DNA of 64,000 nt, taken from positions 124,001-188,000 of the forward strand of contig NZ_JAAORE010000002.1 in the NCBI RefSeq assembly GCF_017696175.1. The letters are read 5' to 3'. The translations under genes and the position numbers were made by a program. Positions within the stretch are counted from its first letter, which is position 1, and every line of letters begins with the position of its first letter. The notes beneath the pieces are model-generated. The model saw only the letters and a list, made by a program, of their open reading frames with translations. It searched no databases and was not told the origin of the DNA. The stretch comes from Prochlorococcus marinus XMU1404. GTDB lineage: Bacteria > Cyanobacteriota > Cyanobacteriia > PCC-6307 > Cyanobiaceae. Shown in pieces: positions 854 through 29,588 of the stretch.

Positions 854-1918
854 ATGAAAAAAAAAATACCAGTAATAGTTGTTTCCGGTTTTCTTGGTTC
901 AGGTAAAACAACTTTTCTTAGATATTTGTTAAAGGAAAGTAATAAAAAATTCGGTTTAATAATCAATGAATTTGGTGATGTTGGAATTGACGGTGATTTA
1001 ATTAAAAGTTGCGATAGATGTGATGAAACAGAAGAAGAATGCGTAATCGAATTAAATAATGGATGTTTATGTTGTACTGTTCAAGATGATTTTGTTCCAT
1101 CAATAAAAGCTCTTCTAGAATTTAATCCTACTATTGAATCAATAATTATCGAAACAAGTGGCTTGGCACTTCCAATTCCCTTAATTCAAGCACTTAACTG
1201 GCCTGAAATTAGGTCTTCCATATACCTTGATGTAGTAGTTGGTATCGTTAATGGAGAGTCAATGCTTAATGGTTCACCAATTAATGATCTTAATAAAATA
1301 ACAAAACAATATAATGATACGTTTAAAATTGATCATAACGCCGATATTGAAGAACTTTTTGAGGAACAACTTGAAGTCTCTGATATCGTTTTAGTCTCTA
1401 GATCAGATATCTTAAATGATCATCAGTTTGATGTTGTAAAAAATAAAATCCAAGGAAGTCTGAACTCATCTACACCTGTCCTTAAATCCAAGAATGGCAA
1501 AATTGATTTAAATTATCTATTTGACTTTAACTTTAAAAAGGAGACTTATAAAGAATTTTTAACGGAAGAACATGACCATAATCATGTTGAGCTTGTATCA
1601 GATTCAATTAAATTAAATTATTTCCTTGAAAAAAATGACTTTGAAAAAGAGATGTCAAAAATCTTGGATGAATTAAACATTCTTCGAATAAAAGGACGTA
1701 TTTGGATACCAAACAAATCATTGCCTTTACAAATACAAATAGTTGGAAAAAAAATTAATACTTGGTTTGAAGAAGCTCCCATCAATTGTTGGAAACCAAT
1801 TGATAATGCTGGTCTTGAATTAGTAATAATTTCCTTTGATGAAAAATCGATAAAAATTTTGGAAAAAAAATTTAAAGAGAAATTTAAGATTTTAAATGAC
1901 CCAATAATACCAATTTGA
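854..1918 (+). CDS. cobW: CobW GTPase, metallochaperone of cobalamin synthesis
   Basis: This is a 354-aa G3E-family GTPase. It has a Walker A motif GFLGSGKTT at residues 12-20, NEFGDVGIDG at about 38-47, a metal-binding CLCC (CxCC) at 71-74, ETSG at 100-103 and a His-rich stretch EHDHNH near 240 before a C-terminal CobW_C-type domain. The GDVGIDG and ETSGLALP-to-NWPEIR segments resemble the cobalamin-linked CobW subgroup rather than generic zinc chaperones. Its known role is to deliver Co(II) for corrin synthesis, consistent with cobN, cobU and metH in the same window. The G4 position reads SRSD (182-185) instead of the usual NKxD. A zinc-chaperone role cannot be excluded from sequence alone. 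Confidence 0.85.
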   Translation: MKKKIPVIVVSGFLGSGKTTFLRYLLKESNKKFGLIINEFGDVGIDGDLIKSCDRCDETEEECVIELNNGCLCCTVQDDFVPSIKALLEFNPTIESIIIETSGLALPIPLIQALNWPEIRSSIYLDVVVGIVNGESMLNGSPINDLNKITKQYNDTFKIDHNADIEELFEEQLEVSDIVLVSRSDILNDHQFDVVKNKIQGSLNSSTPVLKSKNGKIDLNYLFDFNFKKETYKEFLTEEHDHNHVELVSDSIKLNYFLEKNDFEKEMSKILDELNILRIKGRIWIPNKSLPLQIQIVGKKINTWFEEAPINCWKPIDNAGLELVIISFDEKSIKILEKKFKEKFKILNDPIIPI

Positions 1919-1964
1919 CTTTATAGTTAGCTGTCGGGATACTTACTACAGTAGAAAGTCGTAA

Positions 1965-2129
1965 ATGGAAAATCCAAAAATTGCTTTAAAACAAATAATC
2001 TCTGACGATGTAATATCAATTGATAAAATCAAATGTTCCAAATGTGGAGGGGCAGGAAATTTTAAAACACCTGAAAATTCAAGAAGAACTTGTTTAGTTT
2101 GTTTTGGTAAGGGTTACATAAACATTTAA
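1965..2129 (+). CDS. Small DnaJ-type zinc-ribbon protein, 54 aa
   Basis: This short ORF runs from ATG to TAA and encodes 54 residues. It begins MENPKIALKQ and contains CSKCGGAGNF near residue 28, then CLVCFGKGYI near the end. That gives two CxxC knuckles of the CxxCxGxG type seen in the DnaJ cysteine-rich domain, so it probably binds one zinc ion. No J domain is present. It follows cobW by 46 bp on the same strand. Similar very small DnaJ-zinc-finger proteins occur in picocyanobacteria; the function is unknown, with protein-disulfide or chaperone-related roles possible. Confidence 0.75.
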   Translation: MENPKIALKQIISDDVISIDKIKCSKCGGAGNFKTPENSRRTCLVCFGKGYINI

Positions 2130-2226
2130 AAATTCAGAAAACCTTGAGGTAAAAATATTTGTTTATTAATCAATAGTACTTTTTATTAGAATTTAAACTA
2201 ATCTTCTAATAGAAATTATTTTTTAA

Positions 2227-2481
2227 TTGGACCAATTTGCTGTAAAAGTTTTTGTAAGACTAAGACCTTCAGTTTTAGATCCAGCAGGGGAAGCTACCAA
2301 ATCTGCCTCTATAAAACTTGGAGCCGAGGGAATAAAATCATTACGTATAGGAAAAATGATTGAAGTAAAAATAGAAGGTAATGGTGAAAACGAAGTAAGA
2401 GAAAAAATTGATTTATTGTGTGATAGGTTATTCGCAAATACTGTTATTGAAGACTATGAATATTCACTAGAAAAATTATAA
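2227..2481 (+). CDS. purS: Phosphoribosylformylglycinamidine synthase, PurS subunit
   Basis: The 84-aa protein is the usual PurS length and has the typical pattern [16 protein letters not shown] near the N-terminus and a conserved acidic end. PurS bridges PurQ and PurL in the FGAM synthase complex (FGAR plus glutamine and ATP to FGAM), the fourth step of purine synthesis. The start must be TTG at 2227: an in-frame TAA sits immediately upstream (2224-2226) and no ATG precedes the conserved region. The gap to purQ is 1 bp, so the two genes are one translation unit. purL is not in the window. Confidence 0.93.
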
Positions 2482-2482
2482 G

Positions 2483-3148
2483 ATGGATAATTTTACTGTA
2501 GGAGTTATTGTCTTCCCTGGTTCTAATTGTGATCGTGATGTTTCATGGGCACTGGAAGGTTGTTTAGACATGAGAACGAAATACTTGTGGCATGAGTCTT
2601 CAGATTTAAGCGATGTAGATGCAATAGTTTTACCTGGAGGATTTAGCTATGGTGATTATTTAAGATGCGGTGCAATTGCTAGATTCTCTCCATTAATAAA
2701 TGCCTTGGATGAGTTTGTTAAAACCGGAAAAAGAGTTTTAGGAATATGTAATGGGTTTCAAATCTTAACAGAATCAGGCTTTTTGCCTGGTGCCCTTACT
2801 GCAAATAAAAACCTTAATTTCATCTGTGATGATGTTGAACTTGATATTGTTTCTTCAAAAGGAGGTTGGTTTAATAATGGAGGTGAAAAACAAACTATTA
2901 AGTTGCCAATAGCGCATGGGGAAGGAAGATATCATTGTGATTCTGATACTTTAAAAAAACTTGCAGATAATGAATTGATCGCTTTGAGATATAAAAATAA
3001 TCCTAATGGATCCTTATTTGATATCGCAGGCATAACTAATGAAAAGGGAAATGTTTTAGGTTTAATGCCTCATCCAGAACGTGCATGTGACGATACAATT
3101 GGTGGGACTGATGGTCTCTTTACATTAAAATCATTAATATTGAAATAA
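2483..3148 (+). CDS. purQ: Phosphoribosylformylglycinamidine synthase, PurQ glutaminase subunit
   Basis: This is a 221-aa class I glutamine amidotransferase. It has [12 protein letters not shown] at the N-terminus, the nucleophile Cys in [11 protein letters not shown] at about residue 93, and the His/Glu pair in GLMPHPERA near residue 197. It hydrolyses glutamine and channels ammonia to PurL for FGAM formation. The length and motifs are normal. It is directly downstream of purS, and a hairpin with a T-run follows within 10 bp, so the purSQ transcript probably ends there. Confidence 0.95.
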
Positions 3149-4424: not shown

Positions 4425-5492
4425 TTAGTAAGTGTAGCCTGCAACAAATAATTGCTCATCAGATGAAGGTTGCGAACCTGCTACGTAGGATCCTGTTGAA
4501 GCCTCTGAGTTTGCTTGAGCTCTTGCTATTAAGGCCTTTTGACCACCTTCTACATCACTTCCCTTCCAAGCCTTTAAGCACGAGTGCTGTAATGCTCTTC
4601 CATATGAGAATGAAACGTTCCATAAAGCTTTTCTGTAAAGAGTATTCATATTATTTAAATAAACAGAAGCAGCCTCTTCGCTTAATCCTCCTGATAAGAA
4701 AACTATTCCAGGAACAGATGCAGGAACGCATCTTTCCATAGTTCTTATAGTCATCTCTGCAACTTTCATAGGATCTGCCTTAGTTTGACAATCTGCTCCA
4801 TTAACTGTCATAGAAGGTTTTAAAAGTGTTCCCTCTAGAAAGACTCCATTAGCTTGACAAGCAATGTAAACCTGCTTAATAACCTCTTGTTGAACTTCAG
4901 CAGTTTTTTCGATAGTATGATCGCCGTCCATTAAGATTTCAGGTTCAATAATTGGTACCAAGCCCGATTCTTGAACTGATCTCGCATACCTTGCGAGTCC
5001 CCATGCGTTCTCTTGTATTGATAGTTTTGAAGGACAACCATCACTTGTTATCTGGAGAACTGCTCTCCACTTTGCAAATCTTGCGCCTTGTTCATAATAT
5101 TTTGCTGCTCTTTCAACTAATCCATCTAGACCAGAGCAAAAAGTTTCTACATCTCCTGCTCCAGGAAGTGGAATTAAACCTTTATCAACCTTTATTCCAG
5201 GAATGATACCTAAATCATTTAATTTCTTAACCATTGATTCACCATCTTGGTGATTCTGATAAAGAGTTTCTTCAAAAAGTATTGCTCCACTTATGTATTT
5301 ACCAAGGCCTTCTGTAGTAAAAAGCATACCTCTATATGCCTTCCTGTTCTCTTCAGTATTCTCAACACCAATTCCAGCTAGTCTTTTCCCAACTGTTTTA
5401 GTGGATTCATCTACGGCTAATATACCTTTCCCTTTAGAAGCTAGTAATTGAGCATTTTCTTTAAGCTCATTCTTGTAATAATTTAAAGCCAT
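4425..5492 (-). CDS. fda: Fructose-bisphosphate aldolase, class I
   Basis: The 355-aa protein begins MALNYYKNELKENAQLLA and has GKGILAVDESTKTVGKRL near residue 22. It also has GIIPGIKVDKGL and the FAKWRAVLQI and GTLLKPSM segments, with the Schiff-base lysine expected in the latter. These match the Schiff-base class I aldolases that interconvert fructose-1,6-bisphosphate and DHAP plus GAP. The length is normal. It is 150 bp upstream of the class II gene on the same strand, far enough for separate promoters. With two aldolases, one may favour the Calvin cycle and the other glycolysis or gluconeogenesis; that split is inference. Confidence 0.92.
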   Translation of the reverse strand: MALNYYKNELKENAQLLASKGKGILAVDESTKTVGKRLAGIGVENTEENRKAYRGMLFTTEGLGKYISGAILFEETLYQNHQDGESMVKKLNDLGIIPGIKVDKGLIPLPGAGDVETFCSGLDGLVERAAKYYEQGARFAKWRAVLQITSDGCPSKLSIQENAWGLARYARSVQESGLVPIIEPEILMDGDHTIEKTAEVQQEVIKQVYIACQANGVFLEGTLLKPSMTVNGADCQTKADPMKVAEMTIRTMERCVPASVPGIVFLSGGLSEEAASVYLNNMNTLYRKALWNVSFSYGRALQHSCLKAWKGSDVEGGQKALIARAQANSEASTGSYVAGSQPSSDEQLFVAGYTY

Positions 5493-5594
5493 CCTTAAAA
5501 ATTCAGTTCAATTGATTTTTCCAGAATATGAAGAAAAAATAAAATCAATCTAATACTTAATCGGGTGATATTTGCTACGTATCAATGTATAGCC

Positions 5595-6692
5595 TTAAAT
5601 TTTGATACTTAATCCACTTTTCGATGATTCTCTTATAGCTTCACAAACTTTATGACTTGCAAGTCCCTCACTCAAGCCTGGAATGATCGGTGTTTTATTA
5701 AAAATACTTTCAGCCCATAAATTTTGAATTCTCATTACTGGGGCTATCCTCCCATCAGTCCATGTTTTTTTAAAGTTAAAACTTGAATCTGCAGTTAGAT
5801 TTTGGATCTTATTTTCTTTATCTGAATATTTCAAATTAAAACCATGCACATAATCTTTTTGGTTCTCGCTTTTAAGAATAAGTGAACCTTCGCTCCCATA
5901 TATTTCTAAACAAAATCCTCTACCGTTTCTAGAAATCGATGATAACGATACTTGACATGGAATAAGATTCGAGCTGTAGTTTGATAATTCTATATTGGCT
6001 AGACAAACATCCTCGCTCGTAACATCATTTAAATCAGATGAATTAGGTGATGGTCTTTTTTTTATTGAGGTTGCCAACTTGCCAGATACGTTTATGGATT
6101 CTCCAAAAAACCAATTCAACATATCGAATGCATGAGTACCCAAGGCGCCAATAACTCCTCCACCTTTTTCTTCCAAAGAATACCAATTCCAAGTTCTTTT
6201 GGGGTCGGATCTACTGCCCATTAACCAATCTAATTTGACTAAATATATATCTCCTAAGATATTTTCATAAATAAGTTTTTTTGTCTGAAGGAAAAGGGGT
6301 ACTGCTCTATATTCAAAATCAACACATACGCTTAGGTTCTTAATCAATGATATTCTATGTAGCTCTTCAATCTGAGAGGACGATATTGAAACGGGTTTTT
6401 CTAATAGCAAGTTTTTATTATTCTCAAGTGCTTGTTTTGCTAATTTAAATCTTGATTCAGGAGGGGTAGCAATAATAATCCCATCAATTTCTGGAGATTT
6501 AACTAAGTCTTCCCAATCATGAAAAAACTTTAATCCCGTTTCTTTTTCTATTAATGATTTTTGTGCTTTCTCATAATGATATATAGCTACAGGCGTTAAA
6601 TAATGAGACTCTTTTAGTGCCTCTAAATGAACTTTCTTCCCAAACCCAAGTCCAGCAATGGCAATTTTTAATTTTTTATTTTTTGTATTCAT
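5595..6692 (-). CDS. Gfo/Idh/MocA-family NAD(P)-dependent oxidoreductase
   Basis: The 365-aa protein has an N-terminal Rossmann fold, KIAIAGLGFGKKVH (GxGxxG, residues 9-22), and the family motif NLLLEKPVS near residue 95. A GALGTHAFDMLNWFFG segment near 185 contributes to the substrate site. Family members oxidise or isomerise sugar or inositol derivatives, or reduce biliverdin; the substrate cannot be read here. The stop is 2 bp from the next gene's frame, with a secreted-protein gene and accD upstream, so it may be the last cistron of a prk-accD-type run. Prochlorococcus carries such a gene as a core hypothetical dehydrogenase. Confidence 0.85.
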   Translation of the reverse strand: MNTKNKKLKIAIAGLGFGKKVHLEALKESHYLTPVAIYHYEKAQKSLIEKETGLKFFHDWEDLVKSPEIDGIIIATPPESRFKLAKQALENNKNLLLEKPVSISSSQIEELHRISLIKNLSVCVDFEYRAVPLFLQTKKLIYENILGDIYLVKLDWLMGSRSDPKRTWNWYSLEEKGGGVIGALGTHAFDMLNWFFGESINVSGKLATSIKKRPSPNSSDLNDVTSEDVCLANIELSNYSSNLIPCQVSLSSISRNGRGFCLEIYGSEGSLILKSENQKDYVHGFNLKYSDKENKIQNLTADSSFNFKKTWTDGRIAPVMRIQNLWAESIFNKTPIIPGLSEGLASHKVCEAIRESSKSGLSIKI

Positions 6693-25034: not shown

Positions 25035-27479
25035 ATGAAAGTTTCTCAAAATTGGTTAAAAAAATTAGTCGAAATAAATTCTACTCCTGAAGATCTCTCT
25101 GAAAAATTATCTATCGGTGGTTTTGAGGTTGAATCACTAGAAGATTGTTCAAAGAATGTAAAAGGTGTCGTTTTAGGTAAGGTTTTAACTGTTTTAAAAC
25201 ATGAAGAATCTAAAAAACTTTCTATTTGCCAGGTTGATGTTGGCAATTCAAAGAATTTACAAATTATTTGTGGTGCAAGCAATATTAAACCAAATATTTA
25301 TGTTTATATTGCTACTGTCGGAGCAGAATTAAATGCTGTCAATTTAACAATTAAAAGAAGCGAAATTAGAGGTGTACTTAGTGAAGGAATGATATGTTCA
25401 TTGCAAGAATTGGGCATAGAAGATTCTAGCGATGGCATTGCAATTATTGATGAAGAATTAGCCTCAAAATATGTTCTAGGAACTCCTGCGTCTAAGTTTC
25501 TAGGATTAGATGATTTTGTGTATGATTTGGCAATTACAGCTAATAGGCCTGATGGGATGTCTGTAATTGGTATTGCACGAGAAATTTCTGCTCTCTTAGA
25601 AACAAAATTAAATTTTCCAGAATTAAATAATAAATATAGTACTAACTTACTTAATGATATTAAACTATGCCCTGAAGCCATAACATCAAATTGTCTATAT
25701 ACAATAACCAGCATTGACGGAGTCAATGGAGATAAATTATCACCAAGATGGCTTAAGGATCGTATAGAAAAATCAGGTATAAAATCTATAAATCTTATTG
25801 TTGACATAACAAACTACATTCTTTTAGAACAAGGCCAACCTTTGCATGCATTCGATAAGGATAAACTATCAAATTTAATTGGAAAGGAAGTTTCTTCAAA
25901 TGACTTTTCAGTGAGAAAAGCCACAGATAGCGAAAGCCTTGTATGCTTGGACGGGAATAAGTACGATTTAAACAATAACATTACCGTAATAACATGTTCT
26001 AATAAACCAGTTGCTATTGCAGGGGTAATTGGTGGTTTAGAAACTTCAGTATCGACTACTACATCATCCATTTATCTCGAAGGCGCTGTTTTTAATCCGG
26101 TTACAATAAGAAAATCATCAAAGGAGATTGGAATAAGAACTGAATCTAGTAGCAGATATGAAAAAGGAATTTCATCAAAAAATACTATCAATTCTATCAC
26201 TAGAGCAATTAATATTTTAGAGGAATTTTTTGGAATTAATTTACCAACTATTAATACTTCGAGTTTAATAACTAATGAGTGTACTTACATTAAATTACGA
26301 AGAAATCGTATTCACAAAATTCTTGGTCCAATTATCATAAATGATCAGTTTGATAAAAGAAATTTATCTGATAGTGAAATAGTAGACAAATTAACACTCA
26401 TAGGCTGTAATTTAAAAAATAAAGAATACGGGTGGGATGTTGCTGTAATTCCTAATAGATCACAAGATTTAATAAGAGAAATTGATTTAATTGAAGAAAT
26501 ATCAAGATTAATAGGTTATGACAGATTCGATTTAAACCTACCTAGTCCAATTAAGCCAGGAAAATTGTCACCTGATCAATTGGCATTGAGAAAGATAAAA
26601 AATGGTTTCATGGAAAGTGGTTTTAATGAGGTTCTTAGTTATTCACTTGTTCCAGAAGATAATGATGAACTTATTAGGATTTCAAACCCTTTGCTAAAAG
26701 AAACTAGCTGTCTTAGAAACAATATTTGGAAAGAACACCTGCATATTGTAAATCGTAATTTTAAAGCTGGACAGACAAGTTGTTATGTTTTTGAAATTGG
26801 AAATGTTTTCTTTAAAAGTTCAGAATTTATTCAAAAAGAAATTTTAAATGGTGCAATTTTTGGCAATAGAAAATTTGGGAATTGGGCTAATTCAAGTAAA
26901 GATAATTATCTTAATTATTACCAGGCCAGAGGAAAATTAAAGGAAGCTCTGTCATGCTTGAATATAAAAATTGATGATAAGCCAATTAATTCAATTGATT
27001 TTTTACATCCTGGAAGATCAGCGCAGTTATTTATTGAAGGCAAGGATTCAGGATATTTTGGTGAAGTTCATCCAAAACTAATATTGGAAAAGAAAGCTTT
27101 AAAAAATACTTACTTATTTAGTTTAAATTTAGCCAATCTCCTTGCAGCAAGTACTAGGAAAAATAAATGGATCCCATTATTTAAGCAATATCCAACCGTA
27201 CCAAAAATGGAAAGGGATATTAATTTTATTTTCAATAAGAAATACTTAATTAGCGAAATTACATCAGAAATAAAGAAAACAGGTAAGAATCTGTTAGAGG
27301 ATGTAAATCTTATTGATGTTTTTGAAGATATTAATCTTGGAGAAGATTCTATAAGTTATACATTTCGATTATCTTATAGAGATAAAGACAAAACATTACT
27401 AGATTCAGATATTTCCCAAATACACACGAATATCATTTCTAAAGTTGAGAAAAGATTTAATACAAAACTGAGGAACTAG
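25035..27479 (+). CDS. pheT: Phenylalanyl-tRNA synthetase beta subunit
   Basis: The 814-aa protein has the N-terminal tRNA-binding (EMAP II-like) domain at about residues 40-150 (GKVLTVLKHEESKKLSICQV, then GMICSLQELGI). The B3/B4 editing domain lies around 215-400 (GQPLHAFDKDKL, AIAGVIGGLETSV). The catalytic-like core starts near 480 (RSQDLIREIDLIEEISRLIG), and a C-terminal ferredoxin-fold anticodon-binding domain follows (FKQYPTVPKMERDINFIF). With PheS it charges tRNA-Phe. It is divergent from rpmG. Its stop is 18 bp before the first 35-bp repeat element. Confidence 0.96.
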   Translation: MKVSQNWLKKLVEINSTPEDLSEKLSIGGFEVESLEDCSKNVKGVVLGKVLTVLKHEESKKLSICQVDVGNSKNLQIICGASNIKPNIYVYIATVGAELNAVNLTIKRSEIRGVLSEGMICSLQELGIEDSSDGIAIIDEELASKYVLGTPASKFLGLDDFVYDLAITANRPDGMSVIGIAREISALLETKLNFPELNNKYSTNLLNDIKLCPEAITSNCLYTITSIDGVNGDKLSPRWLKDRIEKSGIKSINLIVDITNYILLEQGQPLHAFDKDKLSNLIGKEVSSNDFSVRKATDSESLVCLDGNKYDLNNNITVITCSNKPVAIAGVIGGLETSVSTTTSSIYLEGAVFNPVTIRKSSKEIGIRTESSSRYEKGISSKNTINSITRAINILEEFFGINLPTINTSSLITNECTYIKLRRNRIHKILGPIIINDQFDKRNLSDSEIVDKLTLIGCNLKNKEYGWDVAVIPNRSQDLIREIDLIEEISRLIGYDRFDLNLPSPIKPGKLSPDQLALRKIKNGFMESGFNEVLSYSLVPEDNDELIRISNPLLKETSCLRNNIWKEHLHIVNRNFKAGQTSCYVFEIGNVFFKSSEFIQKEILNGAIFGNRKFGNWANSSKDNYLNYYQARGKLKEALSCLNIKIDDKPINSIDFLHPGRSAQLFIEGKDSGYFGEVHPKLILEKKALKNTYLFSLNLANLLAASTRKNKWIPLFKQYPTVPKMERDINFIFNKKYLISEITSEIKKTGKNLLEDVNLIDVFEDINLGEDSISYTFRLSYRDKDKTLLDSDISQIHTNIISKVEKRFNTKLRN

Positions 27480-27497
27480 GTGTATCACTTATCTTGA

Positions 27498-27532
27498 ATA
27501 AGACTATATATGAGTCTATATATAAGTCTTAT
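27498..27532. repeat. 35-bp near-palindromic AGACT element 1
   Basis: ATAAGACT at the left and AGTCTTAT at the right are perfect inverted 8-bp arms. A third unit (AGTCT) lies at the centre, so units start at 27501, 27513 and 27525, exactly 12 bp apart. It lies 18 bp after the pheT stop and about 50 bp before the start of the small secreted protein, so it could overlap the -35 region of that gene. The same architecture recurs at 28026 and 28207. Confidence 0.8.
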
Positions 27533-27557
27533 ATGAAATAAGTAATAATTTAAAAAA

Positions 27558-27570
27558 AACATCTGATGTT
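27558..27570. repeat. Short perfect palindrome upstream of the small secreted gene
   Basis: AACATC, one T, then GATGTT ends 14 bp before the ATG at 27585. It may be an operator or a short leader hairpin. A TGTAAC/TGTAAT-like stretch follows directly. Chance occurrence is possible given the AT richness. Confidence 0.35.
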
Positions 27571-27584
27571 GTAACATTGTAATC

Positions 27585-27833
27585 ATGATAAACGTATTAA
27601 CTTTATTGCTATCTTCACTGCTATGGGTGCAAGTCCCTCAGTGGTCAGATGATTGGTCAAAATGTTCAGTTGATGTACCTGATGCTTCCTGTCATTGGTA
27701 TATAACTTCACCTGATAATACATTTGGAGAAGGTTTCGACTGGGCTAGCGCCCCTTGGTTTGACGCTAATGGTTTAAGCGATGTGCCAAGTATTGACAAG
27801 CAAACAGCTATACAAAAACTTCAATCTAGGTAG
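27585..27833 (+). CDS. Small secreted protein of unknown function, 82 aa
   Basis: A signal peptide (MINVLTLLLSSLLWVQ) precedes a short mature domain rich in Trp, Asp and Ser, with two cysteines (SKCSVD and ASCHWY) that could pair after export. The coding sequence contains noticeably more G and C than the surrounding DNA (for example GACTGGGCTAGCGCCCC), which suggests strong expression or recent acquisition. It lies alone between pheT and the RHH-J gene, with 35-bp AGACT elements upstream and downstream, and ends in a perfect hairpin. No family is recognised. Confidence 0.7.
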   Translation: MINVLTLLLSSLLWVQVPQWSDDWSKCSVDVPDASCHWYITSPDNTFGEGFDWASAPWFDANGLSDVPSIDKQTAIQKLQSR

Positions 27834-27853
27834 TACTGTCTTTGAGACAGTAC
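27833..27853. terminator. Perfect 9-bp hairpin after the small secreted gene
   Basis: GTACTGTCT and AGACAGTAC form a 9-bp perfect stem around TTG, starting on the last base of the stop codon. A weaker second hairpin follows (AGGC, ATAAAA, GCCT) and ends in TTTT at about 27872. Together they look like a tandem terminator, although the first stem lacks its own T-run. Confidence 0.55.
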
Positions 27854-28025
27854 AGCTAGGCATAAAAGCCTTTTATAGTAATACTTTTTAACCATTATTA
27901 TTTTCTTGGACATCTAAAGGACATAATTTATTGATATATCATTCAGTTTTTAATTTTTCCATGCTAAATCTATTTTGGGCATGATTAATTGAAATTGATA
28001 ATTTACTTTATCTTATTTTTCTATT

Positions 28026-28060
28026 ATGAGACTATAGAATAGACTAATAATAAGACTCAT
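28026..28060. repeat. 35-bp AGACT element 2
   Basis: ATGAGACT at the left and AGACTCAT at the right pair as inverted arms at 7 of 8 positions. All three units read AGACT in the same direction and start at 28029, 28041 and 28053, exactly 12 bp apart. It lies in the middle of the gene-free gap, away from either gene end, so a terminator role is unlikely for this copy. Confidence 0.8.
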
Positions 28061-28206
28061 ATAAGAAAGTATATACAAATAAATTTTTATATTTATAAAA
28101 GTAAATTTTATTTTAATTTCCAATTATATATAATAATTGATTCCAAAAATTCGAATAACAAATGACTAAAGAAGATCTGCAATTTTTCAGTTCATAGCTA
28201 TCTTAT

Positions 28207-28241
28207 ATAAGACTAGTGTATAGACTTATAACTAGTCTTAT
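28207..28241. repeat. 35-bp AGACT element 3 (11-bp perfect arms)
   Basis: ATAAGACTAGT and ACTAGTCTTAT are perfect inverted arms around a 13-bp centre that holds the third unit. Units start at 28210, 28222 and 28234, again 12 bp apart. It lies 16 bp after the RHH-J stop, so as RNA it could also act as a terminator hairpin for that gene. Confidence 0.82.
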
Positions 28242-28256
28242 TTAAGAATGAGTATA

Positions 28257-29264
28257 CTAGTTTCTATAAAGATTTTTTAGCAATTGATAAGCTTCATTTA
28301 ATTTTCTCATTTGATCTGTTGATCCTCCAGCATCTGGATGCGTCTCTAAGGCTATTGATTTATATGCCTCTCTAATTTTACGCAAAGTATGAGCTGATCC
28401 TGCAGATGTTGATAAATTCAATAATTTAAGTGCTCCATGTACTGTCATTGTAGAGTCCAAAGTTTCAAATGAATTTGATCTGTTATTTCGCTTAAATCTA
28501 TTTACAAACCTTCTCATAAGTGTTGGTATCCTATTAATTAGATCTGATGTAGCAAAAGGGTCTTCTAAAACACCAATCATTAATAAAACAATTTCAAGGG
28601 ATGGATTTTTCTTTATCCAAAATGGGCATAATTCAGACATTAATTTATTGGCTGCACTCCACGTAAAGGGTAGATTTTCAGTTCCATCAAGATTTGGCCA
28701 TATATCACTTCCAAACCAATCCATCGAAGCTTCTACTACATGATCATTAGGAACTGATCCATATAAGGTTTTCCAATGACTAATTAACTCAATTCGACAT
28801 TTTATTAATTCAGTTTCTTTAATTGTATTAATTTGAATATCATTAATATTCTCCTTTAATTTTTCACTATTAATACTTCTTCTTAGATTCTTTACTTTTT
28901 TTTCAACAAAATTGGGAAGGCTTATGTTTGAGTTGGCTTTTTCTTTATATTGATTATTATTTGAAAATATTTTTTTCAACGATATCTCATTATCTTCTTT
29001 TTTTACGTCTGATGTAATTAATACCAATGCTGTATCTTCATCAATATTTGAATTTTCATTATTCTTCTTATTAAAGTCTATTTCTTGCTGTTGGTTCTTA
29101 GGTAGTAAATCATCTTCTTGAAGAAGTTCTTTAAGTATCTTTTCTATTACAGGTCCTCTTGCTCTAAATCCCCACTCTTTTCGTAATTGATCAAACCTGG
29201 AAATTAGTTCTTCAGGTAAATCAATTGAAATTCTTTTTGTATTTGAATTTTCAGGAATATTCAA
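28257..29264 (-). CDS. Ribbon-helix-helix DNA-binding / J-domain fusion protein
   Basis: The 335-aa protein starts at TTG 29264 (no ATG is available in frame after an upstream stop). Residues 9-50 fit a CopG/MetJ-like ribbon-helix-helix: strand KRISIDLP, then EELISRFDQLRKEWG and the helix PVIEKILKELL. A polar linker covers about 55-145. A middle helical domain (about 150-260, with NDHVVEASMDWFGSDIWPN) is not recognised. The C-terminal ~65 residues are a J domain with the HPD triad (ETHPDAGGS) that stimulates Hsp70. J domains rarely pair with RHH domains; dnaK and dnaJ are elsewhere in this window. The DNA target is unknown. Confidence 0.78.
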   Translation of the reverse strand: MNIPENSNTKRISIDLPEELISRFDQLRKEWGFRARGPVIEKILKELLQEDDLLPKNQQQEIDFNKKNNENSNIDEDTALVLITSDVKKEDNEISLKKIFSNNNQYKEKANSNISLPNFVEKKVKNLRRSINSEKLKENINDIQINTIKETELIKCRIELISHWKTLYGSVPNDHVVEASMDWFGSDIWPNLDGTENLPFTWSAANKLMSELCPFWIKKNPSLEIVLLMIGVLEDPFATSDLINRIPTLMRRFVNRFKRNNRSNSFETLDSTMTVHGALKLLNLSTSAGSAHTLRKIREAYKSIALETHPDAGGSTDQMRKLNEAYQLLKNLYRN

Positions 29265-29326
29265 TAATATTTTCTTGAATAGTAAGGAATTTCTTTAATT
29301 TTATTCAAAAATAATTGAAAGTCCAT
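29261..29326 (-). CDS. Possible 21-aa leader peptide overlapping the RHH-J start
   Basis: ATG at 29326 opens a 21-residue frame beginning MDFQLFLNKIKE. Its TGA (29261-29263) overlaps the TTG start of the RHH-J gene by two bases. This arrangement fits translational coupling or a regulatory upstream ORF. Such a short frame may also arise by chance in AT-rich DNA. Confidence 0.3.
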   Translation of the reverse strand: MDFQLFLNKIKEIPYYSRKYY

Positions 29327-29408
29327 AAGTAATATTGTTTTTAAATTAAAACCAATTTATTTTCATGTCACAAGTCAATTAAGTATCTTTTTATAATAAA
29401 AATAAAAA

Positions 29409-29588
29409 ATGTTTAATTGTTATTTCAAGTCATCTAAAGAACAAAAGAGTTTTTATCAACACAAGAAATTAGAAATGCTCAACTATATTAAGGATTCACT
29501 CGAACGTAAAATTGCTTCTGTTACAGCATCTATAGAAGTTCTAGAAAGCCAAATAAGCAGGGATAAAGAAGTTGAAGTAACTAACTAG
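29409..29588 (+). CDS. Small helical protein, 59 aa, unknown
   Basis: The frame runs from ATG 29409 to TAG 29588. It starts MFNCYFKSSKEQKSF and has a long amphipathic helix (about residues 20-55, with SLERKIASVTASIEVLESQI) that could form a coiled coil. A second ATG at codon 23 is possible. It is convergent with the Ap4A phosphorylase gene, 2 bp apart, and divergent from the RHH-J gene. Small conserved proteins of this type are common in picocyanobacteria; no function is known. Confidence 0.55.
   Translation: MFNCYFKSSKEQKSFYQHKKLEMLNYIKDSLERKIASVTASIEVLESQISRDKEVEVTN

Follow-up and report, generated by a model that had tools for sequence, protein, structure and literature searches.

An array of short palindromic sites, set in the gap between the convergent genes pheT and RHH-J, lies near the replication terminus in all five genomes in which nucleotide skew was tested. 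RHH-J is, as far as profile matches and a structural model allow it to be read, a ribbon-helix-helix (RHH) fold joined to a J-domain of the Hsp40 type, and we tentatively favour a reading in which this protein covers the array and brings Hsp70 to the terminus, after the manner of MatP/matS or ParR/parC and as a member of neither system. The locus appears to represent a means, not described before, by which Prochlorococcus and its relatives deal with the chromosome end-point, and the cells that carry the array are some of the most abundant photosynthetic cells. In the literature searched (mostly outside subscription journals, and including the available portions of PMC3025954, PMC7198777, PMC4177673 and PMC5016525) we found no description of the array or of the RHH-J protein, nor of any pairing of a co-chaperone domain with a sequence-specific chromosomal array; if the favoured reading is true, a co-chaperone domain would here be tied to such an array.

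Three elements between pheT and RHH-J

The window, i.e., the whole stretch of 64,000 nucleotides of Prochlorococcus marinus XMU1404 that was analysed, had been described in a preliminary description as holding three copies of a 35-bp element with units exactly 12 bp apart. The unit starts (27501/27513/27525, 28029/28041/28053 and 28210/28222/28234) proved right, and all three elements match AGWCT-N7-AGWCT-N7-AGWCT (the triplet) exactly. The first 35-bp copy starts 18 bp beyond the stop of pheT (25035–27479, plus strand), and the third ends 15 bp from the stop of RHH-J (28257–29264, minus strand), the convergent neighbour on the other side of the gap, whose 3′ end points towards the array. When short flanking half-sites (see below) are counted in, element 1 spans 27493–27529 and has the left half-site only (CT, 27493–27494) beside its units at 27501, 27513 and 27525, whereas element 2 (28021–28065; units 28029, 28041 and 28053) and element 3 (28202–28246; units 28210, 28222 and 28234) are 45 bp long and carry both, CT on the left and AG on the right; none of the three is assigned to a strand. 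In the whole genome (1,668,840 bases, 3 contigs) the triplet occurs at three sites, all of them in this interval and within 740 bp, and the reversed control pattern gave 0 matches. That the pattern exceeds chance was borne out by dinucleotide shuffles of the window, which at ≤1 mismatch yielded a mean of 0.03 matches (0 of 100 shuffles reached three). The looser unit RGWCY is found 232 times in the window and forms six pairs at 12-bp spacing, all six inside the three elements. No further site was found in the window at ≤2 mismatches, hence none upstream of RHH-J. An operator role at the RHH-J promoter found no support: the elements lie 3′ of this gene, between it and the convergent pheT. With elements 1 and 3 placed behind the two stop codons and no site standing upstream of RHH-J, control of its promoter is unlikely. 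Of the claim that the middle unit can face either way, the two spellings remain and the facing largely dissolves: AGWCT is a quasi-palindrome, of which AGACT and AGTCT are the readings of the two strands, differing by the central A/T alone. The outer-symmetric order AGACT-AGWCT-AGTCT was seen in 89 of 102 distinct triplets, a set in which a few copies come from elsewhere than the RHH-J locus (from repeat-type matches in genomes G255 and G195).

Among relatives, too, the element is 45 bp long: a half-site stands 11 bp outward of each outer unit, CT on the left side and AG on the right. In the distinct copies of the two main elements (54 and 57, respectively), the left half-site has C in 54/54 and 56/57 and T in 48/54 and 55/57, and the right half-site has A in 54/54 and 56/57 and G in 54/54 and 55/57. 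Variable positions of the arms in these copies pair with their mirror positions no oftener than after shuffling, and many spacer positions seldom pair. Since the arms show no covariation, the elements are best read as sites in duplex DNA and not as hairpins, and their symmetry, to judge from the alignments, suits the binding of duplex DNA by a symmetric protein. Folded as single strands and compared with shuffles, elements 1 and 3 gave z-scores of −2.79 and −4.34, and element 2 gave −1.24; no terminator-like site (a GC-containing hairpin with a T-run) was found in 27300–29500. A simple terminator hairpin, which had been doubted from the start, is thus unlikely, given that neither covariation nor a terminator-like site is present and that it would leave the middle unit and the 12-bp period unexplained. 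Rfam at gathering scores returned two tRNAs over the window and nothing else.

The gap contains two other conserved features. In a well conserved non-coding part, GGACAT is repeated 11 bp apart (27908 and 27919; block 27908–27924), possibly as a further type of site. An ORF of 82 aa (27585–27833, plus strand) lies between elements 1 and 2, with codon-type conservation across 79 aligned loci and with no Pfam match; it is retained in one genome, G042, that has lost RHH-J.

Conservation of the array and of RHH-J

The candidate binder encoded beside the array has 335 aa. An RHH domain (aa 8–50; 29115–29243, minus strand) is predicted by the Pfam RHH_1 profile, found in 21 of 34 aligned members, and by fold alignment with NikR and CopG chains (Z 5–6); a helical middle (aa 118–261; 28482–28913, minus strand) appears in the AlphaFold2 model (mean pLDDT 72.1, pTM 0.41), in which a low-confidence stretch (aa 51–114) joins it to the RHH domain. 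The C-terminal J-domain (aa 273–335; 28260–28448, minus strand) is assigned from the DnaJ profile, present in 34/34 members, from the HPD motif (H309, P310, D311), invariant in all 34, and from a fold match whose best Z is 10.2 (Tim16, chain 2guz_B). Among 388 genomes drawn from the class, a full-length match was obtained in 63, all of them Cyanobiaceae; outside this family 44 genomes matched with best E-values of 2.2e-10 or weaker, and the matches listed there cover the J-domain alone. Stand-alone short matches to the RHH part, some with stops, were also noted (G121:C1:1526339, G183:C1:913177, G309:C1:986096, and others).

Within Prochlorococcus the exact triplet is present in 55 of 73 genomes searched (the window genome counted in), and the reversed control pattern in one of them. 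RHH-J was detected in 60 of the 73, including a pseudogene in G042, and the 13 genomes without it are 50–81% complete. From 80 loci fetched by RHH-J, 78 could be measured (the end of RHH-J was not found in L282 and L293), and 75 of these have one to three exact triplets. In 64/78 loci element 3, at +19 counted from the RHH-J stop, is an exact triplet, and in 62/78 so is element 2, 160–240 bp past that stop; element 1, at the end of pheT, is usually the weakest copy among relatives, being a full triplet in four of the 78 loci and showing two perfect units in 67. Over 661,873 bases of Prochlorococcus loci, no triplet lies farther than 1.2 kb past RHH-J. A loss of the elements in relatives that keep RHH-J, which would have spoken against the preliminary description, was not seen in those checked (G024 and G335, which lack an exact triplet, have three elements with 1–2 mismatches), and in the alignment of the gap interval (79 sequences) the units stand out as conserved blocks amid a variable gap. 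A natural loss is seen in G042 (G042:C1:880125–880481; L018), where RHH-J is a pseudogene with many stops and its middle lost. The elements of G042 are retained, at 1, 0 and 1 mismatches, despite this loss.

The array extends to other genera of the Cyanobiaceae. A draw of 251 genomes from the family gave the exact triplet in 46 and an RHH-J match (E ≤ 0.001) in 218, some of these to one domain alone. In the 1.1 kb after RHH-J, 34 loci from other genera contain 9, 31 and 55 triplets at ≤0, ≤1 and ≤2 mismatches (dinucleotide shuffles: 0.01, 0.02 and 0.31); at least one triplet at ≤2 mismatches is present in 25/34, as degenerate forms with the same 11/12-bp grammar, and none in 9/34. The spacings between RGWCY units in these loci peak at 12 bp (110 pairs against an expected 1.3), with further peaks at 23 (46), 24 (37), 11 (32), 32 (29) and 35 bp (28), the expected count per peak being about 1.3–1.6. 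A search for degenerate sites with a hand-made matrix placed sites of the interval at ranks 2, 3 and 6 in G041 (where the best site in 400 kb lies outside the interval), 1, 2 and 6 in G241, and 1–3 in G189. The array is kept in genera in which the gap has another length and content. In G235, a closed genome of the genus Prochlorococcus, a third exact match lies 120 kb from the cluster, within an A-rich stretch. In L199, from a larger Cyanobiaceae genome (G290), the array sites lie in the gap ahead of an ORF (5200–5694), which we take to be allophycocyanin-like and which separates RHH-J from pheT; the same locus has an ORF of 513 aa (1492–3033) before RHH-J. Several genomes of g38 and g67 have one more weak site, some 2,550 bp ahead of the RHH-J end. 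It was set aside: in L199, the locus checked, it coincides with the start of the 513-aa ORF, and coding conservation may explain it.

Arrays were also found where RHH-J was not. In the cyanobiacean genus g42, RHH-J was matched in 0 of 10 genomes drawn, seven of them at least 95% complete, whereas the exact triplet is present once each in four (G181:C35:2120, G251:C81:1298, G281:C2:33337 and G304:C61:17634). The four sequences resemble one another; the reversed control gave two matches, both in G181. Either RHH-J was lost in g42, or it has diverged past detection, or a different protein binds there. In the distant family f15, arrays with the 12-12-11 (and 20) bp grammar were found in two genomes, neither with an RHH-J match: G104 has the 12-12-11 grammar four times (L013, 158–578; in one copy the final unit reads GGACT), and G086 has it together with a dense cluster (L216, 3441–3660 and 6455–6494). 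These cases speak against a simple pairing of array and RHH-J, and the g42 triplets without a detected RHH-J make this protein less probable as the binder. A phage origin was considered and rejected: a scan of viral contigs for the outer-symmetric pattern gave at least 80 stretches, and none of the 80 listed encodes RHH-J or pheT; 17 of these 80 have two or more near matches, for the most part in-phase hits that overlap one another, or simple repeats.

Position on the chromosome

The preliminary description had missed the place of the locus near the terminus, which is shown by its distance from dnaN and by the skew switch. From dnaN to RHH-J the median distance over 53 closed genomes from 16 genera is 0.485 of the chromosome, and 49 of them reach 0.45 or more; these genomes are related and syntenic and hence not independent, and many of their sizes are rounded to 0.1 Mb; the four below this value are G189 (0.332), G321 (0.388), G259 (0.441) and G289 (0.449). 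The set was taken from 66 genomes with a dnaN position, leaving out the multi-contig genomes G000, G004, G042 and G254 and nine further genomes without RHH-J coordinates. RHH-J and pheT are convergent in 53/53 of the closed genomes, with a gap of 503–3644 bp, and because pheT adjoins RHH-J in all of them, position cannot single out RHH-J.

Skew was strand-corrected, computed at fourfold-degenerate sites over 400 kb round the locus, and searched for a switch to about 180 kb on each side. The switch lies at +83 kb in G241, −30 kb in G041, +11 kb in G189, −30 kb in G142 and +23 kb in G356 (+3.4, −1.7, +0.5, −1.3 and +1.0% of genome length); in G241 the switch 83 kb away fits clearly better than the locus itself, and in G041 the locus is just outside the favoured range. 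With plain GC skew the optima in G041 and G189 were weak or far away, and raw skew across the window alone showed no clear switch. Only in G189 was the entire chromosome sampled. There, the T/A skew stays above zero up to about 400 kb, is close to zero or below it at 500–700 kb, rises above zero again at 700–780 kb, and is negative from 780 kb on, save near 1,060 and 2,180 kb; the locus, at 802 kb, is near the skew switch though only 33% of the way round from dnaN, and the switch might instead be placed near 500 kb.

We know of no dif site in picocyanobacteria. FtsK (PF01580) was found in 0 of 15 Cyanobiaceae at E ≤ 0.001; in four other cyanobacteria it passed the cut-off in one, was weak in a second and was not found in the control S. 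elongatus. According to Kono et al. 2011 (PMC3025954), XerCD-like proteins are present in the five cyanobacteria tried there, and the prediction of dif failed in all five. For the end of replication and the sorting of the terminus in cyanobacteria, the locus described here offers one candidate protein and one short motif.

Possible binders and roles

We interpret the elements as putative palindromic binding sites for a protein, grouped near the terminus in an array like a centromere. The earlier suggestion of an array of the RHH type is sustained in so far as palindromic 12-bp units are conserved in a variable gap, lack covariation and adjoin an RHH gene; against a simple pairing with RHH-J stand the arrays of g42 and f15. 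Dimers of the RHH domain would sit on one AGWCT unit after another, at a spacing of 12 bp that narrows to 11 bp at the edges; with three full sites and two half-sites in each element, and at least three elements per locus, one large nucleoprotein complex could form in the quiet gap between the convergent genes. The flexible linker and the helical middle of RHH-J would then hold out the J-domains, by which Hsp70 (DnaK) may be recruited; once there, it could organise the terminus, hold it or clear it, at a late stage of replication or during division. We infer the binding by RHH-J, the recruitment of Hsp70 and the cellular role from the convergent gap, the multi-element tandem array, the adjacent RHH protein with an effector domain and the place near the terminus, which together suggest a terminus complex. 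A bolder version, which seems to us rather doubtful, is that picocyanobacteria have a terminus system of their own kind, in which an RHH-J-coated array acts like a kinetochore and the J-domains direct Hsp70 to remodel its occupants (replisomes that converge, sisters still linked, or the division apparatus), with a grammar that predates RHH-J and may mark cyanobacterial termini more widely.

Several known systems resemble the locus in part. With MetJ, CopG and NikR it shares tandem short palindromes and an RHH domain that aligns with those of NikR and CopG, and MetJ boxes, AGACGTCT, are not far from AGWCT; the array, however, lies away from the promoter of its own gene, and RHH-J is long and carries a J-domain. 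RTP/Ter of Bacillus subtilis and Tus/Ter of Escherichia coli are fork traps at the terminus, and in the RTP case the gene of the binder likewise adjoins the sites, whereas the sites described here are symmetric and non-polar and RHH-J is of another fold kind. Like Xer/dif, the array is a single locus at the terminus, but dif has two arms round a spacer and the element has three equal units, its centre being the most conserved kind of unit, unlike the Xer/dif spacer; FtsK, moreover, was not found. MatP is itself of the RHH kind. MatP/matS (see PMC4177673) is a site-specific DNA-binding protein and its sites at the chromosome terminus of Enterobacterales and Vibrio, which RHH-J and the array may resemble in their action; matS, however, comprises many single sites spread over the terminus in place of one compact multi-unit array, and RHH-J has a fused J-domain and, in 34 members searched against Pfam-A, no listing of the MatP model at E ≤ 0.1. 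Nor does MatP figure among the fold matches listed for RHH-J, though this carries no weight as evidence. As to plasmid partition, dimers of the RHH proteins of ParR/parC, omega and ParG bind tandem repeats, direct and inverted alike, and these proteins carry a separate effector part (PMC5016525). A tandem repeat array adjoins an RHH gene here as well; it lies, however, 3′ of RHH-J near the terminus and not upstream of a par operon, and no partner motor gene (ParA- or ParM-type) is present among the five ORFs scanned, i.e., RHH-J and four neighbours.

Another protein, older than RHH-J and common to other cyanobacteria, might bind the array, with RHH-J as a neighbour or a later accessory. We consider this unlikely, if far from negligible, and it may be compatible with a role at the terminus. 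The arrays without a detected RHH-J in g42 (4/10) and f15, the elements of G042 that outlast the gene, and the short stand-alone RHH-like matches in some Cyanobiaceae would all fit it; on the other hand, RHH-J adjoins the array at every RHH-J locus where an array was found, no second match to its profile was found in the window genome at E ≤ 1e-5, and the cases of g42 and G042 could reflect secondary loss with relic sites, or an RHH-J too diverged to be recognised. Local control, in which an array-bound protein would regulate the 82-aa ORF, read-through from pheT or an RNA of the gap, appears improbable: element 1 ends about 50 bp ahead of the ATG of this ORF and RHH proteins often are repressors, yet elements 2 and 3 lie past both convergent stops in a stretch where no gene was seen, the region upstream of RHH-J has no site, and the array persists in genera with a different gap length and content.

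Quite improbable, to our mind, is a fork trap analogous to RTP/Ter or Tus/Ter, in which the protein-bound array would halt forks at the terminus. Although the position near the terminus and the adjoining gene for a DNA-binding protein (compare RTP of Bacillus subtilis) would suit it, the units and elements are near-palindromic and show no polarity in sequence, they form a single cluster and not oppositely oriented sets, and the array is up to 83 kb from the skew switch. That the elements are terminators of pheT and RHH-J, or hairpins in their RNA, is a reading that we disfavour and deem highly improbable. In its favour, elements 1 and 3 stand directly behind stop codons and surpass shuffled sequences in folding; the folding of element 2, the lack of covariation and of a terminator-like site, and the middle unit and period speak against it. 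An accessory or core site for the resolution of chromosome dimers, by analogy with Xer accessory sequences, is very improbable on present evidence: the terminus position and the failure of dif prediction in PMC3025954 are in keeping with it, as are the tyrosine-recombinase-like matches in 19/19 genomes searched, a recurrent ORF of about 390 aa among them, but the three equal units are not two arms round a spacer, FtsK was not found in the Cyanobiaceae searched, and the recombinase-like genes lie away from the array, none beside it. The recurrent ORF, of about 390–430 aa and with a weak tyrosine-recombinase match in many Cyanobiaceae (e.g., G000:C1:506475–506903), is a candidate for a housekeeping Xer-like enzyme.
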